Shown here in pieces: positions 13,218 to 25,399 of a stretch of DNA of 64,000 nucleotides; the stretch's first letter is position 1, and every line of letters begins with the position of its first letter. Made by a program: the position numbers and the translations under genes. The stretch lies in contig NZ_AP018718.1 of NCBI RefSeq assembly GCF_003966565.1, forward strand, positions 2,418,001 through 2,482,000, written 5' to 3'. This DNA is from Sulfuricystis multivorans (lineage in GTDB: Bacteria; Pseudomonadota; Gammaproteobacteria; Burkholderiales; Rhodocyclaceae). The notes beneath the pieces were generated by a model that saw only the letters and a list, made by a program, of their open reading frames with translations, made no database searches and had not been told where the DNA came from.

Positions 13218-13257
13218 TCAAGACACCTGCCAAGCTTTCGCCCCAACGTGCCGGGGT

Positions 13258-13280
13258 GCCGTCCCGCCAGCGCCGACTTT
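13258..13280. repeat. Short GC-rich repeat (GTCCCGCCAGCGCCGA type)
   Basis: The sequence GCCGTCCCGCCAGCGCCGAC followed by TTT sits 11 bp beyond the stop of the convergent hydrolase gene. The same 16-20 bp string recurs at 15187-15210 (minus strand, inside the helicase gene), 24950-24973 (inside ogt) and 51675-51698 (at the hemL stop). Confidence 0.6.
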
Positions 13281-14067: not shown

Positions 14068-14974
14068 GGACTGCTCCTTTTGCCAAGAGATGACGTGACA
14101 AGAACTCAAGCACAGCATCGATGCCGGCGTCCATCTCGGCGTATTCATCGTGGCTGCCGGCGATGAGCAACAACTCTACTGCATCGTGGGCGCGGTTCGC
14201 AAAGATCTGCCGCACCTCTTCAACCGGCACGGTTTCATCCGCCGTGCCATGGGCAAGCAGCACCGGCCAGCGCACTGTGCGGATCGTATTCACCGGCGCG
14301 ATGGCGTCGAAGCGGTGGCCGATCGCGTGCTGCACATAGCCGAGGATGGCCCAGCCAAGCGGCCAGTAGGGGATGTGCTTCCATGCCAGCCAGCGACGCA
14401 TCATCGCCTCGGGATGAGCGAAGGCGGCGATGCTGACGCCGGCGGCCAGCGGTGCACCGCGTGCGGCGGCGAACAGGCAGGCGCCGGCTCCGACCGAATG
14501 GCCGATCGCCGCGACGCGCGCCGCATCGATGCCGACCTGCTGCCGCAGCCAGGCAAGAGCGTGCTCGAGGTCCTCGGCGAAACGCGGCAGCGAAGCGAAA
14601 CTGTCGTCATCGCTCATGCCATGGCACCGCGCATCGAATAGCAACTGGGCATATCCTGCCCGATGCAGCGGGCCGGCCAGCGGCAGCATCGTTTCGGCAT
14701 TGCCGCCCCAGCCATGCAGCAGCACGACCGCCGGGGCCGTCTGCCTTTGTGCTGGGATGAACCAGCCGCGCAGCGTACGTCCGTTGCTGGTCGGGAATGC
14801 GACGGTGCGGAACGTCAGGCCGAGATCGGCGGGCGTGCTCCGCTCGATCAGGCGCGGCGCGGCCAGTGCGCGGCGGATCGCCCAGCTGGCAAGCAGCAGG
14901 AAAACAAGGACGAGCAGCAGGCCCAGCGACAGGCCGAGAGCAAGGCTCAACTCAGACCGCCTCCAGTTTCGCAA
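14057..14974 (-). CDS. Membrane-anchored alpha/beta hydrolase
   Basis: 305 residues. A strong hydrophobic segment at about 10-33 anchors the protein in the inner membrane. The hydrolase domain has LLHGWGGN (oxyanion loop), nucleophile Ser160 in GHSVGAG, an acid in LLAHGTADETVP and a late His (AGSHDEY). It resembles the prolyl-oligopeptidase-like or BAAT-like hydrolases of unknown substrate. The start overlaps the 3' end of the helicase gene by 23 nt and the end overlaps the next hydrolase, so all three are probably one transcript. Confidence 0.75.
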   Translation of the reverse strand: MRNWRRSELSLALGLSLGLLLVLVFLLLASWAIRRALAAPRLIERSTPADLGLTFRTVAFPTSNGRTLRGWFIPAQRQTAPAVVLLHGWGGNAETMLPLAGPLHRAGYAQLLFDARCHGMSDDDSFASLPRFAEDLEHALAWLRQQVGIDAARVAAIGHSVGAGACLFAAARGAPLAAGVSIAAFAHPEAMMRRWLAWKHIPYWPLGWAILGYVQHAIGHRFDAIAPVNTIRTVRWPVLLAHGTADETVPVEEVRQIFANRAHDAVELLLIAGSHDEYAEMDAGIDAVLEFLSRHLLAKGAVHES

Positions 14975-17288
14975 CCGACAGCGCCAGCCACTTCATGCCG
15001 GCGTCGCCGAAATTGACCTGCACGCGCGCATCATGACCGCTGCCTTCGGCATTGACGATCACACCAAGACCGAATTTCGCATGTCTCACCGTCTGGCCGA
15101 TGCGCAAGCCCGAATCGGGCCGCGAGCGCGCATAAGTCGGCGCTGGCGGAAATGAGGACGTCCCGCCGGGCGCCGCCCCACCTCGGAAGGTCGGCGCTGG
15201 CGGGACGGCACCAGCTCGGGTCGCACGCGCATTGAGAGTCTTGATGAGCGCAGCCGGAATCTCGTCGATGAAGCGCGAAGGCAGGTTGTAGCGCGTCTGG
15301 CCGTGCAGCAGGCGCATCTGCGCATGGGTCAGATACAGGCGTTTTCTGGCGCGCGTGACGGCGACATACATGAGGCGCCGTTCTTCCTCGAGGCCCTTCT
15401 CTTCGACGAGCGAATTCTCGTGCGGAAACAATCCTTCCTCCAGCCCGCAGATGAAGACGACGTCGAATTCGAGTCCCTTCGCGGCATGCACGGTCATCAG
15501 CTGCAGCGCGTCCTCCCCTTCGCCGGCCTGGTGCTCGCCGGCCTCGAGCGCGGCATGGGCGAGGAAGGCGGCGAGATCGCCGGAGAGCTCGCCTTCGCCG
15601 TCTGCCGCGCCTTCCTCGGCGATGAAGGCGGCGGCGGCATTGACGAGCTCGTCGAGGTTGGCGAGCCGCTCCTGGCCTTCCTTTTCGTTGCGGTAATGCT
15701 CACGCAGGCCGGAAAGGTCCAGCACATGCTCGACGAGCTCGGGCAGCGGCAAATGCGCTGCTGCGCGCAGCTTATCGATCAACTCCGCAAATGCCGCGAG
15801 CTTGGCGCCACCGGCGCCGGCCACATGAGGGATCGCCGCATAAAGGCTCGTCCCCCGTGCCATCGCGGCGTCGGCGAGCAGCTCGAGTGTTCTCGCGCCG
15901 ATCCCGCGCGTCGGGAAATTGACGACGCGGGAAAACGCCGTGTCGTCGTCGGGATTGGCGATCAGCCGCAGATAGGCGAGCGCATGCTTGATCTCGGCGC
16001 GCTCGAAGAAGCGCAGGCCGCCATAGACGCGGTAGGGAATGCCGGCATTGAACAAGGCGTGTTCGAGCGCGCGGGACTGCGCATTGCTGCGGTAGAGCAA
16101 CGCGATCTCGTGGCGAGCATGACCCTCGGCGACCAGTGCCCCAACCTCCTCGACGATGAAGCGCGCCTCGTCATTGTCCGAATACGCCTCGAAGAGGCGG
16201 ATCGGCTCGCCCGCGCCCGCTTCGGTCCACAGGTTCTTGCCGAGCCGCGAGGGGTTGTTTTTGATGATCGCGTTGGCGGCGTCGAGGATGTTGCCGTGCG
16301 AACGGTAGTTCTGCTCGAGGCGAATCACATTCTTGACCGCGAACTCACGCTCGAAGTCGCGCATGTTGCCGACTTCCGCACCGCGGAAGGCATAGATGGA
16401 TTGATCGTCATCACCGACGCAGAACAAAGACCCGCCCCCCTCGACCTCCCCTCGCGGGGGGAAGCTTCCGAGCTCGCTGCGCTCGTCTGTTACGGGCGAC
16501 TCCGTTGCACCGTCAGCGCGGGTTGCGGCTTCGCCGCGTGCCGGCCGGCCTTGGGACGGCCCTGCGCCCGGCCTGCGCCCTATCTGACCGGCCAGCAGCT
16601 TCAGCCAGCGGTATTGCAGGCGGTTGGTATCCTGGAACTCATCGACGAGGATGTGGCGGAAGCGCTCCTGGTAATGGCGGCGGATCGGCTCATTGCGCTC
16701 CAAAAGTTCGTAGGCACGCAGCAGCAATTCGGCGAAATCGACCACGCCCTCCTTCTGGCACTGTTCCTCATAGGCGGCGTAAAGCTCGACGCGCTTTTTC
16801 GTCCAGTCATCCCAAGCTTCGACCGCGGCCGGCCGCCGGCCGGCCTCCTTCTGCGCGTTGATGAACCAGGTGATCTCGCGCGGCGGATATTTCTCGTCAG
16901 AGACGTTCAGGGTCTTCAAAAGCCGTTTCACCGCGGCGAGCTGGTCGGCCGCGTCGAGGATCTGAAACAGCTGCGGCAGATGGGCATCACGGTAGTGCGC
17001 CCGCAACATGCGGTTCGCCAAGCCGTGGAAAGTACCGATCCACATCCCGCGCAGATTCATCGGCAGCATCGCCGACAGGCGCACGAGCATCTCTTTCGCC
17101 GCCTTGTTGGTGAAGGTGACGGCGAGCACCCCCTGGGGGGTGACCTGCCCGGTCGAGATCAGCCAGGCGATCCGGGTGGTGAGCACCCGCGTCTTGCCGC
17201 TACCTGCGCCGGCGAGGATCAGGGCATGCTGCGGCGGCAGGGTGACCGCAGCCAGCTGCGGTTCGTTGAGACCTTTCAGTAGATTCAA
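14952..17288 (-). CDS. uvrD: UvrD/Rep-family DNA helicase with two unusual repeat-derived segments
   Basis: 778 residues, superfamily 1A 3'-5' helicase active in excision repair and replication. Motif I is AGAGSGKT, motif II with its neighbours reads VDEFQDTN and VGDDDQSIYAFRG, and motif VI is LMYVAVTRARKRLYLTH. It starts with TTG at 17288 (MNLLKGLNEPQLAAV). Two stretches are odd. Residues of about 235-287, between the DEFQDTN strand and FCVGDDDQS, are a roughly 50-residue Gly/Pro/Arg-rich insertion of low-complexity GC repeat type. Residues of about 693-719, in the linker before the C-terminal domain, carry two VPPAPT/FPPAPT units. UvrD is more likely than PcrA or Rep by context. Confidence 0.88.
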   Translation of the reverse strand: MNLLKGLNEPQLAAVTLPPQHALILAGAGSGKTRVLTTRIAWLISTGQVTPQGVLAVTFTNKAAKEMLVRLSAMLPMNLRGMWIGTFHGLANRMLRAHYRDAHLPQLFQILDAADQLAAVKRLLKTLNVSDEKYPPREITWFINAQKEAGRRPAAVEAWDDWTKKRVELYAAYEEQCQKEGVVDFAELLLRAYELLERNEPIRRHYQERFRHILVDEFQDTNRLQYRWLKLLAGQIGRRPGAGPSQGRPARGEAATRADGATESPVTDERSELGSFPPRGEVEGGGSLFCVGDDDQSIYAFRGAEVGNMRDFEREFAVKNVIRLEQNYRSHGNILDAANAIIKNNPSRLGKNLWTEAGAGEPIRLFEAYSDNDEARFIVEEVGALVAEGHARHEIALLYRSNAQSRALEHALFNAGIPYRVYGGLRFFERAEIKHALAYLRLIANPDDDTAFSRVVNFPTRGIGARTLELLADAAMARGTSLYAAIPHVAGAGGAKLAAFAELIDKLRAAAHLPLPELVEHVLDLSGLREHYRNEKEGQERLANLDELVNAAAAFIAEEGAADGEGELSGDLAAFLAHAALEAGEHQAGEGEDALQLMTVHAAKGLEFDVVFICGLEEGLFPHENSLVEEKGLEEERRLMYVAVTRARKRLYLTHAQMRLLHGQTRYNLPSRFIDEIPAALIKTLNARATRAGAVPPAPTFRGGAAPGGTSSFPPAPTYARSRPDSGLRIGQTVRHAKFGLGVIVNAEGSGHDARVQVNFGDAGMKWLALSVAKLEAV
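15134..15210 (-). repeat. Two copies of the short GC-rich repeat inside the helicase gene
   Basis: On the minus strand, 15187-15210 and 15134-15152 both carry CCGCCAGCGCCGAC/T. They are read as VPPAPTF and FPPAPTY within the disordered linker before the C-terminal domain, separated by a Gly/Ala-rich spacer. The same string occurs in intergenic DNA at 13258 and 51675 and in ogt. Confidence 0.65.
16426..16590 (-). repeat. In-frame low-complexity insertion in the helicase gene
   Basis: About 165 bp (a multiple of three within my reading) of GC-rich DNA with short inverted segments such as CCTCCCC...GGGGGG lies between codons for LLAGQ and FCVGDDDQS, which are nearly adjacent in ordinary UvrD proteins. 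It encodes a Gly/Pro/Arg/Glu-rich loop. The boundaries are approximate because the parent sequence is not available. Confidence 0.6.
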
Positions 17289-17332
17289 TGGCTTAGCCTT
17301 TTCGTCAAAGTATGTAGTCTAGCCGATGGGGC

Positions 17333-18954: not shown

Positions 18955-21809
<2,855 letters not shown>

Positions 21810-22314: not shown

Positions 22315-23643
22315 GTGATCCTGCGCCCCGAACAACTTCATGCCCACCTCGAAAAGCCCCTGCAGCCACTCTACGTGCTGCACGGTGACGAGCCGCTGCT
22401 GACCACGGAGGCCGGCGATCTGCTGCGCGCCGCGGCGCGCCGGCAAGGCTACACGGATCGCACGGTGCTCGTCGTCACCCCTTCTTTCAAGTGGGAAGAA
22501 CTGTTCCATGCCGCCGGCAACCTGTCGCTGTTCGGAGGCCGCGCGTTCATCGATCTGCGCATTCCAACCGGCAAGCCGGGCCGCGATGGCGCCGAAGCGT
22601 TGCAACGCTACGCCCGCGCGCTACCTGCCGAGACCATTACGCTCATCACGCTGCCGGAAATGGATTGGCGCGCTCGAAAAGCGGCATGGTTTGCCGCGCT
22701 CGCCGGGGTCGGGGTGGTCATCGAAGGCAATGCCCCGCCGGTAGCGATGCTGCCGCAGTGGATCAGTCGGCGCCTCGCTGCGCAAGGCCAATCGGCGTCT
22801 GCCGAGGCTCTCGAATTCATCGCGCTCAATGTCGAAGGCAATCTCCTCGCCGCACATCAGGAAATCCAGAAACTCGGACTCCTTTATCCGCCGGGCGAAT
22901 TGTCGCTGCAGCAGGTCTCCGCCGCGGTGCTGAACGTCGCCCGCTATGACATCGACGACCTGAAGAACGCTCTGCAAGCGAAGGATGCCGCGCGCGCCGC
23001 ACGCACGCTCGAAGGTTTGAAGGCCGAAGACGCCGCCCCGCCGCTGGTGCTCTGGGTGCTGGCCACTGAGGCCAGAAGCCGCGCGCAACGCGCCGCCGCC
23101 TCCGTTCCGCCCTCGCAAAGTCAGCCTCCTAGGGGGTCGGCGTCCGGCGTCGCTCACGGCCGCTCCGCCCCCGCCTGCGGCGGGTCCCCCTCCGCTGTTC
23201 GCGCCGCCGCCTCCGTTCCGCCCTCGCAAAGTCAGCCTCCTAGGGGGTCGGCGTCCGGCGTCGCTCACGGCCGCTCCGCCCCCGCCTGCGGCGGGTCCCC
23301 CTCCGCTGTTCGCGCCGCCGCCTCCGTTCCGCCCTCGCAAAGTCAGCCTCCTAGGGGGTCGGCGTCCGGCGTCGCTCACGGCCGCTCCGCCCCCGCCTAC
23401 GGCGGGTCCCCCTCCGCTGTTCGCGCCGCCGCCTCCGTTCCGCCCTCGCAAAGTGAGCCCCCTGGGGGGTCGGCGTCCGGCGTCGCTCACGGCCGCTCCG
23501 CCCCCGCCTACGGCGGGTCCCCCTCCGCTGTTCGCGCCGCCCTATTGCATGCGGCGCGGATCGATCGCATCATCAAGGGGTTGAGCAGTGGGGACGTTTG
23601 GGATGAATTCCTGCAACTTGCGTTGCGATTGACGAGAGCATGA
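22315..23643 (+). CDS. holA: DNA polymerase III delta subunit with a four-unit internal tandem repeat
   Basis: 442 residues, about 100 more than usual. It is the clamp-loader subunit that opens the beta clamp. The GTG start at 22315 gives [23 protein letters not shown] and [10 protein letters not shown] are typical of domain I. Residues of about 260-410 are four in-frame 37-residue repeats rich in Ser, Pro, Gly and Ala. The recognisable C-terminal helices ([20 protein letters not shown]) resume directly after them. About 40 residues of domain III expected between [11 protein letters not shown] and that helix are not seen, so the repeat appears to replace structured sequence. The reading frame is intact to the overlap with proA. 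Confidence 0.88.
23101..23544 (+). repeat. Four 111-bp tandem repeats inside holA
   Basis: Four head-to-tail units of 111 bp, starting at 23101, 23212, 23323 and 23434. Units 1 and 2 are identical; units 3 and 4 differ at a few positions (for example TGC to TAC, and CAGCCTCCTAGG to GAGCCCCCTGGG). Each encodes 37 residues and keeps the frame. The near-identity of the units suggests recent expansion, and copy number may vary among strains. Confidence 0.95.
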
Positions 23644-24902: not shown

Positions 24903-25399
24903 GCCCGCCCACCCCCAGCCCCGCCCTCTCGGGCGGGGAGACTTTGTGTGCCGTCCTGCCAGCGCCGAGCTTCAGCATCGGCATCCGCTGCAACGACGAT
25001 GCGATCGCCGAGATCGTCTATCTCGAGCCGTGCCCCGAAATCAAGCCCTCCTCGGCGTTGGCGAAAGAGGCCGTGCGCCAGTTACGCGCTTATCTGAAAG
25101 ACCCGCGCTTTCTCTTCTCGCTGCCGCTCGCCCTCGCCGGCACGGCCTTCCAGCGCCGGGTCTGGGCCGGTATTACGACCATTCCCGCCGGCGCGACGCA
25201 GACCTATGGCGAGCTGGCGCGCACGCTCGGCAGCAGCCCACGCGCCGTCGGCAATGCCTGCGGTGCCAATCCCTATCCCCTCGTCATCCCCTGCCATCGC
25301 GTCGTCGCCGCAGGCGGCAAGTTGGGCGGCTTCGCCCGCCAACGCGGCGGTTTCCTGCTCGAAGTGAAGCGCTGGCTGCTCGCGCATGAGGGAGCCTGA
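24899..25399 (+). CDS. ogt: Methylated-DNA-protein-cysteine methyltransferase
   Basis: 166 residues from the GTG at 24899, which overlaps the proA stop. It removes alkyl groups from O6-alkylguanine by suicidal transfer to a Cys. The active-site motif is [13 protein letters not shown], with [17 protein letters not shown] as the DNA-binding helix-turn-helix. The first 25 residues are encoded by repeat family D plus the GTCCTGCCAGCGCCGA repeat (read as [18 protein letters not shown]), so either the protein gained a repeat-derived N-terminus or translation begins later, for instance at the TTG at 24944. The 3' end overlaps xerD by 14 nt. Confidence 0.85.
24903..24973 (+). repeat. Family D copy 3 joined to the short GC-rich repeat, at the start of ogt
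   Basis: CCCCGCCCTCTCGGGCGGGG hairpin-forming sequence and GAGACTTTGTG match family D copy 2 in reverse orientation. They run straight into GCCGTCCTGCCAGCGCCGAG, a variant of the short repeat at 13258 and 51675. The segment lies in the first codons of ogt. Confidence 0.65.

Follow-up and report, generated by a model that had tools for sequence, protein, structure and literature searches.

The gene holA encodes the DNA polymerase III delta subunit and lies at 22315..23643 on the + strand of a 64,000-nucleotide stretch of the Sulfuricystis multivorans genome (hereafter the window), where it specifies a protein of 442 aa including an insertion. The insertion is a tandem array, and it sits where part of the delta subunit is missing. 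How did an essential replication protein come to carry such an array, where did the repeated unit come from, and does the array replace what was lost?

A tandem array in the frame of holA

Tandem Repeats Finder placed the array at 23089-23541, with a period of 111, 4.1 copies, 98% matches, no indels and a score of 871. Four 111-bp units occupy 23089-23532 and are followed by a 9-bp remainder, CGCGCCGCC, which is also the start of every unit. Unit 1 (23089..23199, + strand, 111 bp, 37 residues) and unit 2 (23200..23310, +) are identical, unit 3 (23311..23421, +) differs from unit 1 by 1 base (C>Y) and unit 4 (23422..23532, +) by 4 bases (Q>E, P>P, R>G and C>Y); of the 4 base changes that separate units 1 and 4, 3 are nonsynonymous. 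Within the ORF at 22315-23643 (+; 442 aa) the array is read in frame, and because 111 = 3 x 37 and the frame used is stop-free, each copy adds 37 residues, so that the product of the array is 148 added residues, rich in Ser/Pro/Gly/Ala. A 51-base stretch of the unit matched four times in the 64-kb window at ≤3 mismatches and not once in 100 shuffles. The initial annotation had described four 111-bp units, two of them identical, in frame, and both Tandem Repeats Finder and the comparison of units bear this out; it had located the array at 23092-23544, which is the right place with the wrong coordinates. Its suggestion of recent copy-number change agrees with the two identical units and with arrays at a comF-like gene that differ in unit number between two genomes.

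Three of the six frames of the unit are stop-free, and 1653 of 2000 shuffles have more. Selection for open frames is not supported, as stop-free frames are no commoner than in shuffles of the same composition; since they are equally common there, the element need not be adapted to coding.

Tandem repeats are a usual place for assembly errors. We regard an artefact of assembly or binning as very unlikely: the assembly (2.81 Mb) consists of 3 contigs with completeness 100 and contamination 0, the array is placed at 2.44 Mb in a contig of 2.56 Mb, its units differ by substitutions, and the comF-like array is present in two separate assemblies.

An older loss in domain III

The ORF matched Pfam DNA_pol3_delta at 27.1 bits (cut-off 21), and its product has 86% identity to the orthologue in the genome G003 and matches E. 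coli delta with E 4e-30; a family profile of ten HolA proteins matched 1jqj_C with E 3.4e-46. Most HolA proteins of relatives measure 292-298 aa, as trimmed for the junction comparison. Alignment of the HolA profile with 1jqj_C shows that ∼39 residues are absent opposite E. coli delta 260-298, leaving domain III incomplete. The claims that ∼40 residues of domain III are missing and that the C-terminal sequence resumes right after the array both stand. The possibility of a second holA copy was also checked. A search of the genome with holA gave three matches, of which the second (E 2e-7) is a related repeat beside a comF-like gene and the third has an E value of 0.85; the search found one holA, and no other delta subunit was found in the genome.

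To place the loss of the ∼39-residue block relative to the array, HolA was compared among relatives. holA was found in 61 of 61 genomes, and the HolA junction was read in 28 of 29 fetched loci, with L048 left out, as were the second holA-like matches of G004 and G010. Block and repeat are both absent at the best holA locus of all 18 other genomes of the genus that were compared (18/18). The block is absent, again without the repeat, from the sister genera represented by G019, G026 and G032, and the remaining 7 loci among the 28 read keep it. In a second set, of named genomes, 44 of 80 kept loci were read, 6 of those without a readable C-terminus; the block is absent in 14 (L136-L147, L149 and L150, with Rhodocyclaceae and two Sulfuritalea MAGs among them) and present in 24, including one Sulfuritalea MAG, L152. 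As the block is absent without the repeat in genus-mates and sister genera, the deletion of ∼39 residues came before the insertion of the repeat. Small extras at the array site are tolerated in G016 and in L144, L145 and L146. Taken by themselves, these comparisons also delineate a clade of Rhodocyclaceae without ∼39 collar-domain residues of delta (L025-L044, L049, L136-L147, L149 and L150).

The initial annotation had suggested that the repeat substitutes for structured sequence lost from domain III, and we considered whether it could do the structural work of that block. The repeats do sit where the block is missing. However, the 18 genus-mates and the 3 sister genera manage without the block, without the repeat and without a replacement of similar size (G016 has a few extra residues), and the units, rich in Ser/Pro/Gly/Ala, differ mainly by substitutions that change the residue. 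The proposal is not borne out by these comparisons, and we hold it to be highly improbable.

Relatives of the unit and the origin of the array

Comparison with relatives defines the insertion site. The left copy of a 9-bp direct repeat, CGCGCCGCC, lies at 23089..23097 and the right copy at 23533..23541, where it is joined to CTATTGCATGCG, a sequence that is continued in relatives. At the uninterrupted site of relatives such as L025, L027, L029 and L037, CGCGCCGCC occurs once (the G017 site reads CGCACCGCC in its place), and in the window it occurs at both array ends and at every junction, so that 444 bp, exactly 4 x 111, have been added. The 102 bp between the 9-mers are absent from holA orthologues.

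Sequences related to the unit occur at other loci. A DNA search found the unit or its core in 8 of 101 genomes, our own included. We built a sequence model of the 111-bp unit, R2, from the holA, own comF and lnt copies, which leaves G017 as the only independent genome, and ran it over 19 genomes of the genus, scoring 150 first-look candidates per genome. It matched four units in holA and two beside the end of the comF-like gene here, two full units and one partial unit at this gene in G017, and a single unit in lnt of G003; the full units outside holA scored E 7e-20 or better. The four matches in holA read the array as an element (T type) at 23094..23537 on the - strand, over model positions 2-111, and are not independent, the model having been built partly from holA units. 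In G015 and G010, intergenic DNA gave weak matches; many other, short ones correspond to the cores of a second, 87-bp type of element (S type), with which the 111-bp unit has a GC-rich core in common. R2 detected no unit in comF of other genomes of the genus and nothing in 22 loci around the holA and RAYT genes of relatives.

The gene bearing the second T-type array, which we take to be comF, was found in 18 of the 19 genomes of the genus, and the gene ends of 8 relatives run straight through with no array (10 of 17 loci read). T-type arrays occupy the 3' end of this one comF-like gene at G000:C1:2267383-2267603 in our genome (L006) and at G017:C1:2401316-2401611 (L088), with two units in the former and two plus a partial unit in the latter. 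The last residues and the stop of the comF-like frame come from the first unit. A unit private to holA was rejected given the related copies at the comF-like gene and lnt. Judged by similarity between loci, the T-type element is a member of a small family dispersed in this Rhodocyclaceae genus, and the term minisatellite, used in the initial annotation, is apt for the tandem expansion and incomplete as a label for the unit.

In the array of the comF-like gene in our genome, the nine bases GGCGACGCG stand at each end and again where the units meet, and in the holA and comF arrays alike the overlap falls on a common element boundary and measures exactly 9 bp. GGCGGCGCG, from holA on the minus strand, and GGCGACGCG, from comF, differ by one base. 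The lnt copy of G003 has no 9-bp duplication, and the flanks of the weak intergenic relatives in G015 and G010 share little. The 9-bp repeats suggest, rather than prove, a target-site duplication. Because the 9-mers are one base apart and the lnt copy lacks a duplication, insertion at a preferred sequence or micro-homology could also account for them, and a preference for the target, or micro-homology between it and the end of the element, must be taken seriously as another explanation.

Two other origins for the array have to be weighed against insertion of an element. Tandem duplication at holA itself, perhaps seeded by the native 9-mer and without any mobile insertion, has in its favor that CGCGCCGCC is native and could seed slippage, and that 54-bp tandem arrays occur at 5 of 20 sampled stretches of our genome that carry the motif described below; against it, the 102 bp between the 9-mers are not in orthologues and yet are related to comF and lnt sequence, and we consider such a local origin doubtful. 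It could also be argued that the array is a selected, length-variable linker in which unit number tunes the clamp loader. Identical units, a frame-neutral length and the different unit numbers of the two comF-like arrays would fit, but a change in unit number keeps the frame, so there is no on/off switch, and relatives do without the array; we think selection of this kind unlikely.

A single insertion of a dispersed element into holA, followed by tandem amplification, is the origin that we favor and consider probable, and it would have given a probably disordered, near-neutral loop of 148 residues. An ancestor had lost ∼39 residues of the collar domain, and a later insertion would have targeted the same place. 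A GC-rich T-type element of ∼102 bp would then have entered holA in minus orientation, leaving a 9-bp direct repeat, and the 111-bp segment (element plus 9 bp) would have reached four tandem copies through slippage or unequal recombination. Unit 4 is the most diverged, followed by unit 3 and then by the identical units 1 and 2, an order consistent with growth from one end. The outcome would be a working delta subunit that carries a probably disordered, near-neutral loop. What the sequences show is an array with its 9-bp repeats, a site that is uninterrupted in relatives, related elements elsewhere and the older deletion; we infer transposition, slippage, disorder, neutrality and a protein that is made and works.

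The S-type element was searched for with an 87-bp model, R1. Matches were most numerous in G003, with 24 besides the lnt core, followed by G017 (4), G002 (2), G007 (2), G008 (1) and G018 (one weak partial match); in the window, beside the holA array, the best match had an E value of 0.045. Changes on both sides were seen in 12 of 23 pairs of the S hairpin (37 matches, 35 distinct), compared with 4.5 ± 1.3 in shuffles and 2-4 in slid controls, in an alignment that was fitted to the hairpin structure tested. A predicted S-type hairpin is thus supported by covariation. Folding energy was not clearly better than that of shuffles for the T unit (z 1.18 and 0.04) or for three single S sequences, two of them both strands of one copy (z -0.57, -0.04 and -1.49).

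Of 47 open frames read across the S elements and the lnt copy, 20, one per locus, were scanned with Pfam. A family scored above the cut-off in 13 of the 20, six had no family and one fell below the cut-off. The families were HemY, Peptidase_S13, an MR_MLE enzyme, ABC_tran, ACR_tran, DsbD, T2SSE, AhpC-TSA, a DPBB/SPOR protein, an RNA methyltransferase, lnt, a topoisomerase IV/gyrase subunit A (in G007) and a molybdopterin enzyme. In G003, 11 of the 24 S copies lie in open frames with a Pfam family above the cut-off; such counts of elements in frame are counts of survivors, gene-breaking insertions falling outside them. At the element, 22 residues of the ABC transporter and 14 of the PBP4-like protein are additional to those of solved homologues (PBP4 in the latter case); the alignments of the RNA methyltransferase and the topoisomerase to their solved homologues stop short of the element.

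The closest known kind of element appears to be the Rickettsia palindromic elements, which two reviews describe as short, dispersed and often in frame in conserved genes (PMC10969869; PMC2229807), with sizes of 105-146 bp (PMC2229807) or ∼150 bp (PMC10969869). As far as those descriptions go, the elements found here resemble them in size and in their settings, which are intergenic DNA as well as the reading frames of unrelated conserved genes. The dispersed in-frame copies, of T type in holA and lnt and of S type in the 11 of 24 G003 copies, add to the resemblance, as would the predicted hairpin of the 87-bp relatives, which covariation supports and folding energy does not. In contrast to the Rickettsia elements, those described here belong to another bacterial group, are GC-rich and show tandem amplification inside one gene. 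The likeness is one of description, and the frames here are no more open than in shuffles.

REP/BIME sequences with RAYT are likewise short and repeated, and a hairpin is predicted in the 87-bp relatives; unlike them, the elements described here are not restricted to intergenic DNA. A RAYT (Y1_Tnp) gene is present in 5 of the 19 genomes of the genus, among them G002 and G007 with their 2 S copies each. Y1_Tnp (PF01797) had no match in the repeat-rich genomes G000, G003 and G017. No transposase was linked to the element; a REP/RAYT system is not supported. With coding minisatellites, or VNTRs, the array has in common near-identical tandem units of a length divisible by 3, but the holA unit has relatives at other loci. 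Titles and abstract openings in the literature gave no report matching the holA case among those on palindromic elements in coding genes, REP in Rhodocyclaceae, short dispersed repeats in Betaproteobacteria or tandem repeats within essential genes, and none of a tandem repeat in holA or the clamp loader delta subunit.

An uptake-like motif and the meaning of the array

Both ends of the S elements resemble those of a 24-26-bp motif, AAAGTCGGCGCTGGCGGGACGGCA(CC). The holA unit has a hairpin core in common with the S elements, but is not sited in the motif. Our genome contains 189 copies of the motif at ≤3 mismatches, 90 and 99 per strand, and 18 of the 19 genomes of the genus contain 30 to 435 copies (G005 has none). 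Outside the genus, at least one copy was found in 18 of 82 genomes and more than five in only 4 (G019 with 86, G026 with 280, G055 with 151 and G040 with 11), and a reversed-pattern control gave 0 copies in each of the 101 genomes. The window holds copies at 13257-13280 (-), 15187-15210 (+), 21679-21702 (+) and 24949-24972 (-), plus 8 matches at 3 to 5 mismatches.

We examined how the motif sites compare among orthologues. At folA, 13 orthologues vary in length by 3-6 bases where the motif lies, and their likeness to it is graded, with the motif absent from two. At the leuS motif (21679-21702), 5 of 6 orthologues are gap-free and one has 12 extra bases. None of 6 relatives aligned clearly at the uvrD site; at 24949-24972 one of 6 is gap-free (L136), two give poor or gapped alignments, and the site is not covered in the other three. 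The reading of the motif as an inserted REP was set aside, since folA orthologues differ by 3-6 bases and not 24; ispE, too, has no extra residues at the motif in comparison with 8ckh. At folA and leuS, it therefore looks as if the motif evolves in place, in the manner of DNA uptake sequences.

Other repeats were seen in the same frames and genome. The leuS frame also holds a 14-bp tandem repeat (GGGATCAGAGGTCA, 3.9 copies) at 21290-21344, in a linker that is variable, both in sequence and in length, across 7 relatives. In the UvrD helicase (14955-17318, -), the motif is in frame near 15135-15212, between Pfam UvrD_C and PcrA_UvrD_tudor, in a region reading GAVPPAPTF...SFPPAPTYA; some 54 bp from it there is a second partial motif. 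Our genome has 40 exact copies of the motif, of which the first 21 along the contig were examined in 20 stretches. Five of these stretches (L254, L255, L258, L259 and L260) carry 54-bp tandem arrays with the motif, in 2.3 to 4.8 copies; L258 and L260, the two scanned, are in frame in NnrS and DUF3108 proteins. At L262 (C1 near 1062344), the motif lies in an open frame of a Cas9-like protein (HNH_4, RuvC_III).

Known uptake sequences are reported to have many copies on both strands, also inside genes, and to evolve by substitution in place (PMC1939737). The motif resembles the DUS and USS of Neisseriaceae and Pasteurellaceae, so described, in occurring on both strands and in genes and in seemingly evolving by substitution in place. 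It is unlike them in its core of 24-26 bp compared with 9-10 bp (PMC1939737) and in its 189 copies here compared with thousands (PMC3630211), and it belongs to another clade. Searches of the literature gave no report of an uptake signal for Rhodocyclales or Rhodocyclaceae. A DNA uptake sequence is a lead, and not a result.

A joint reading of these observations, which we put forward as tentative and less likely than not, is that a Rhodocyclaceae clade may have an uptake-signal-like motif in hundreds of copies, many of them in genes, with hairpin elements inside motif copies (by consensus adding ∼60 bp, 20 codons, more) and with tandem units of 54 bp and 111 bp, all of them steps of three bases. 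Together, these would add in-frame linkers to HolA, UvrD, DsbD, topoisomerase IV subunit A and Lnt. If true, uptake signals would then be present in three lineages, this one being the third, and the clade would show an ongoing, frame-neutral remodelling of the core proteome.

For the delta subunit, the locus is a natural experiment, in which an essential replication protein was first shortened by ∼39 residues and then, in a single lineage, lengthened by 148 at the same place, and the order of loss and gain can be read from relatives. For the wider group, it points to another set of bacteria whose conserved genes carry dispersed elements in frame, in this case also amplified in tandem. The motif, in turn, would offer a testable claim on natural transformation in Rhodocyclaceae.
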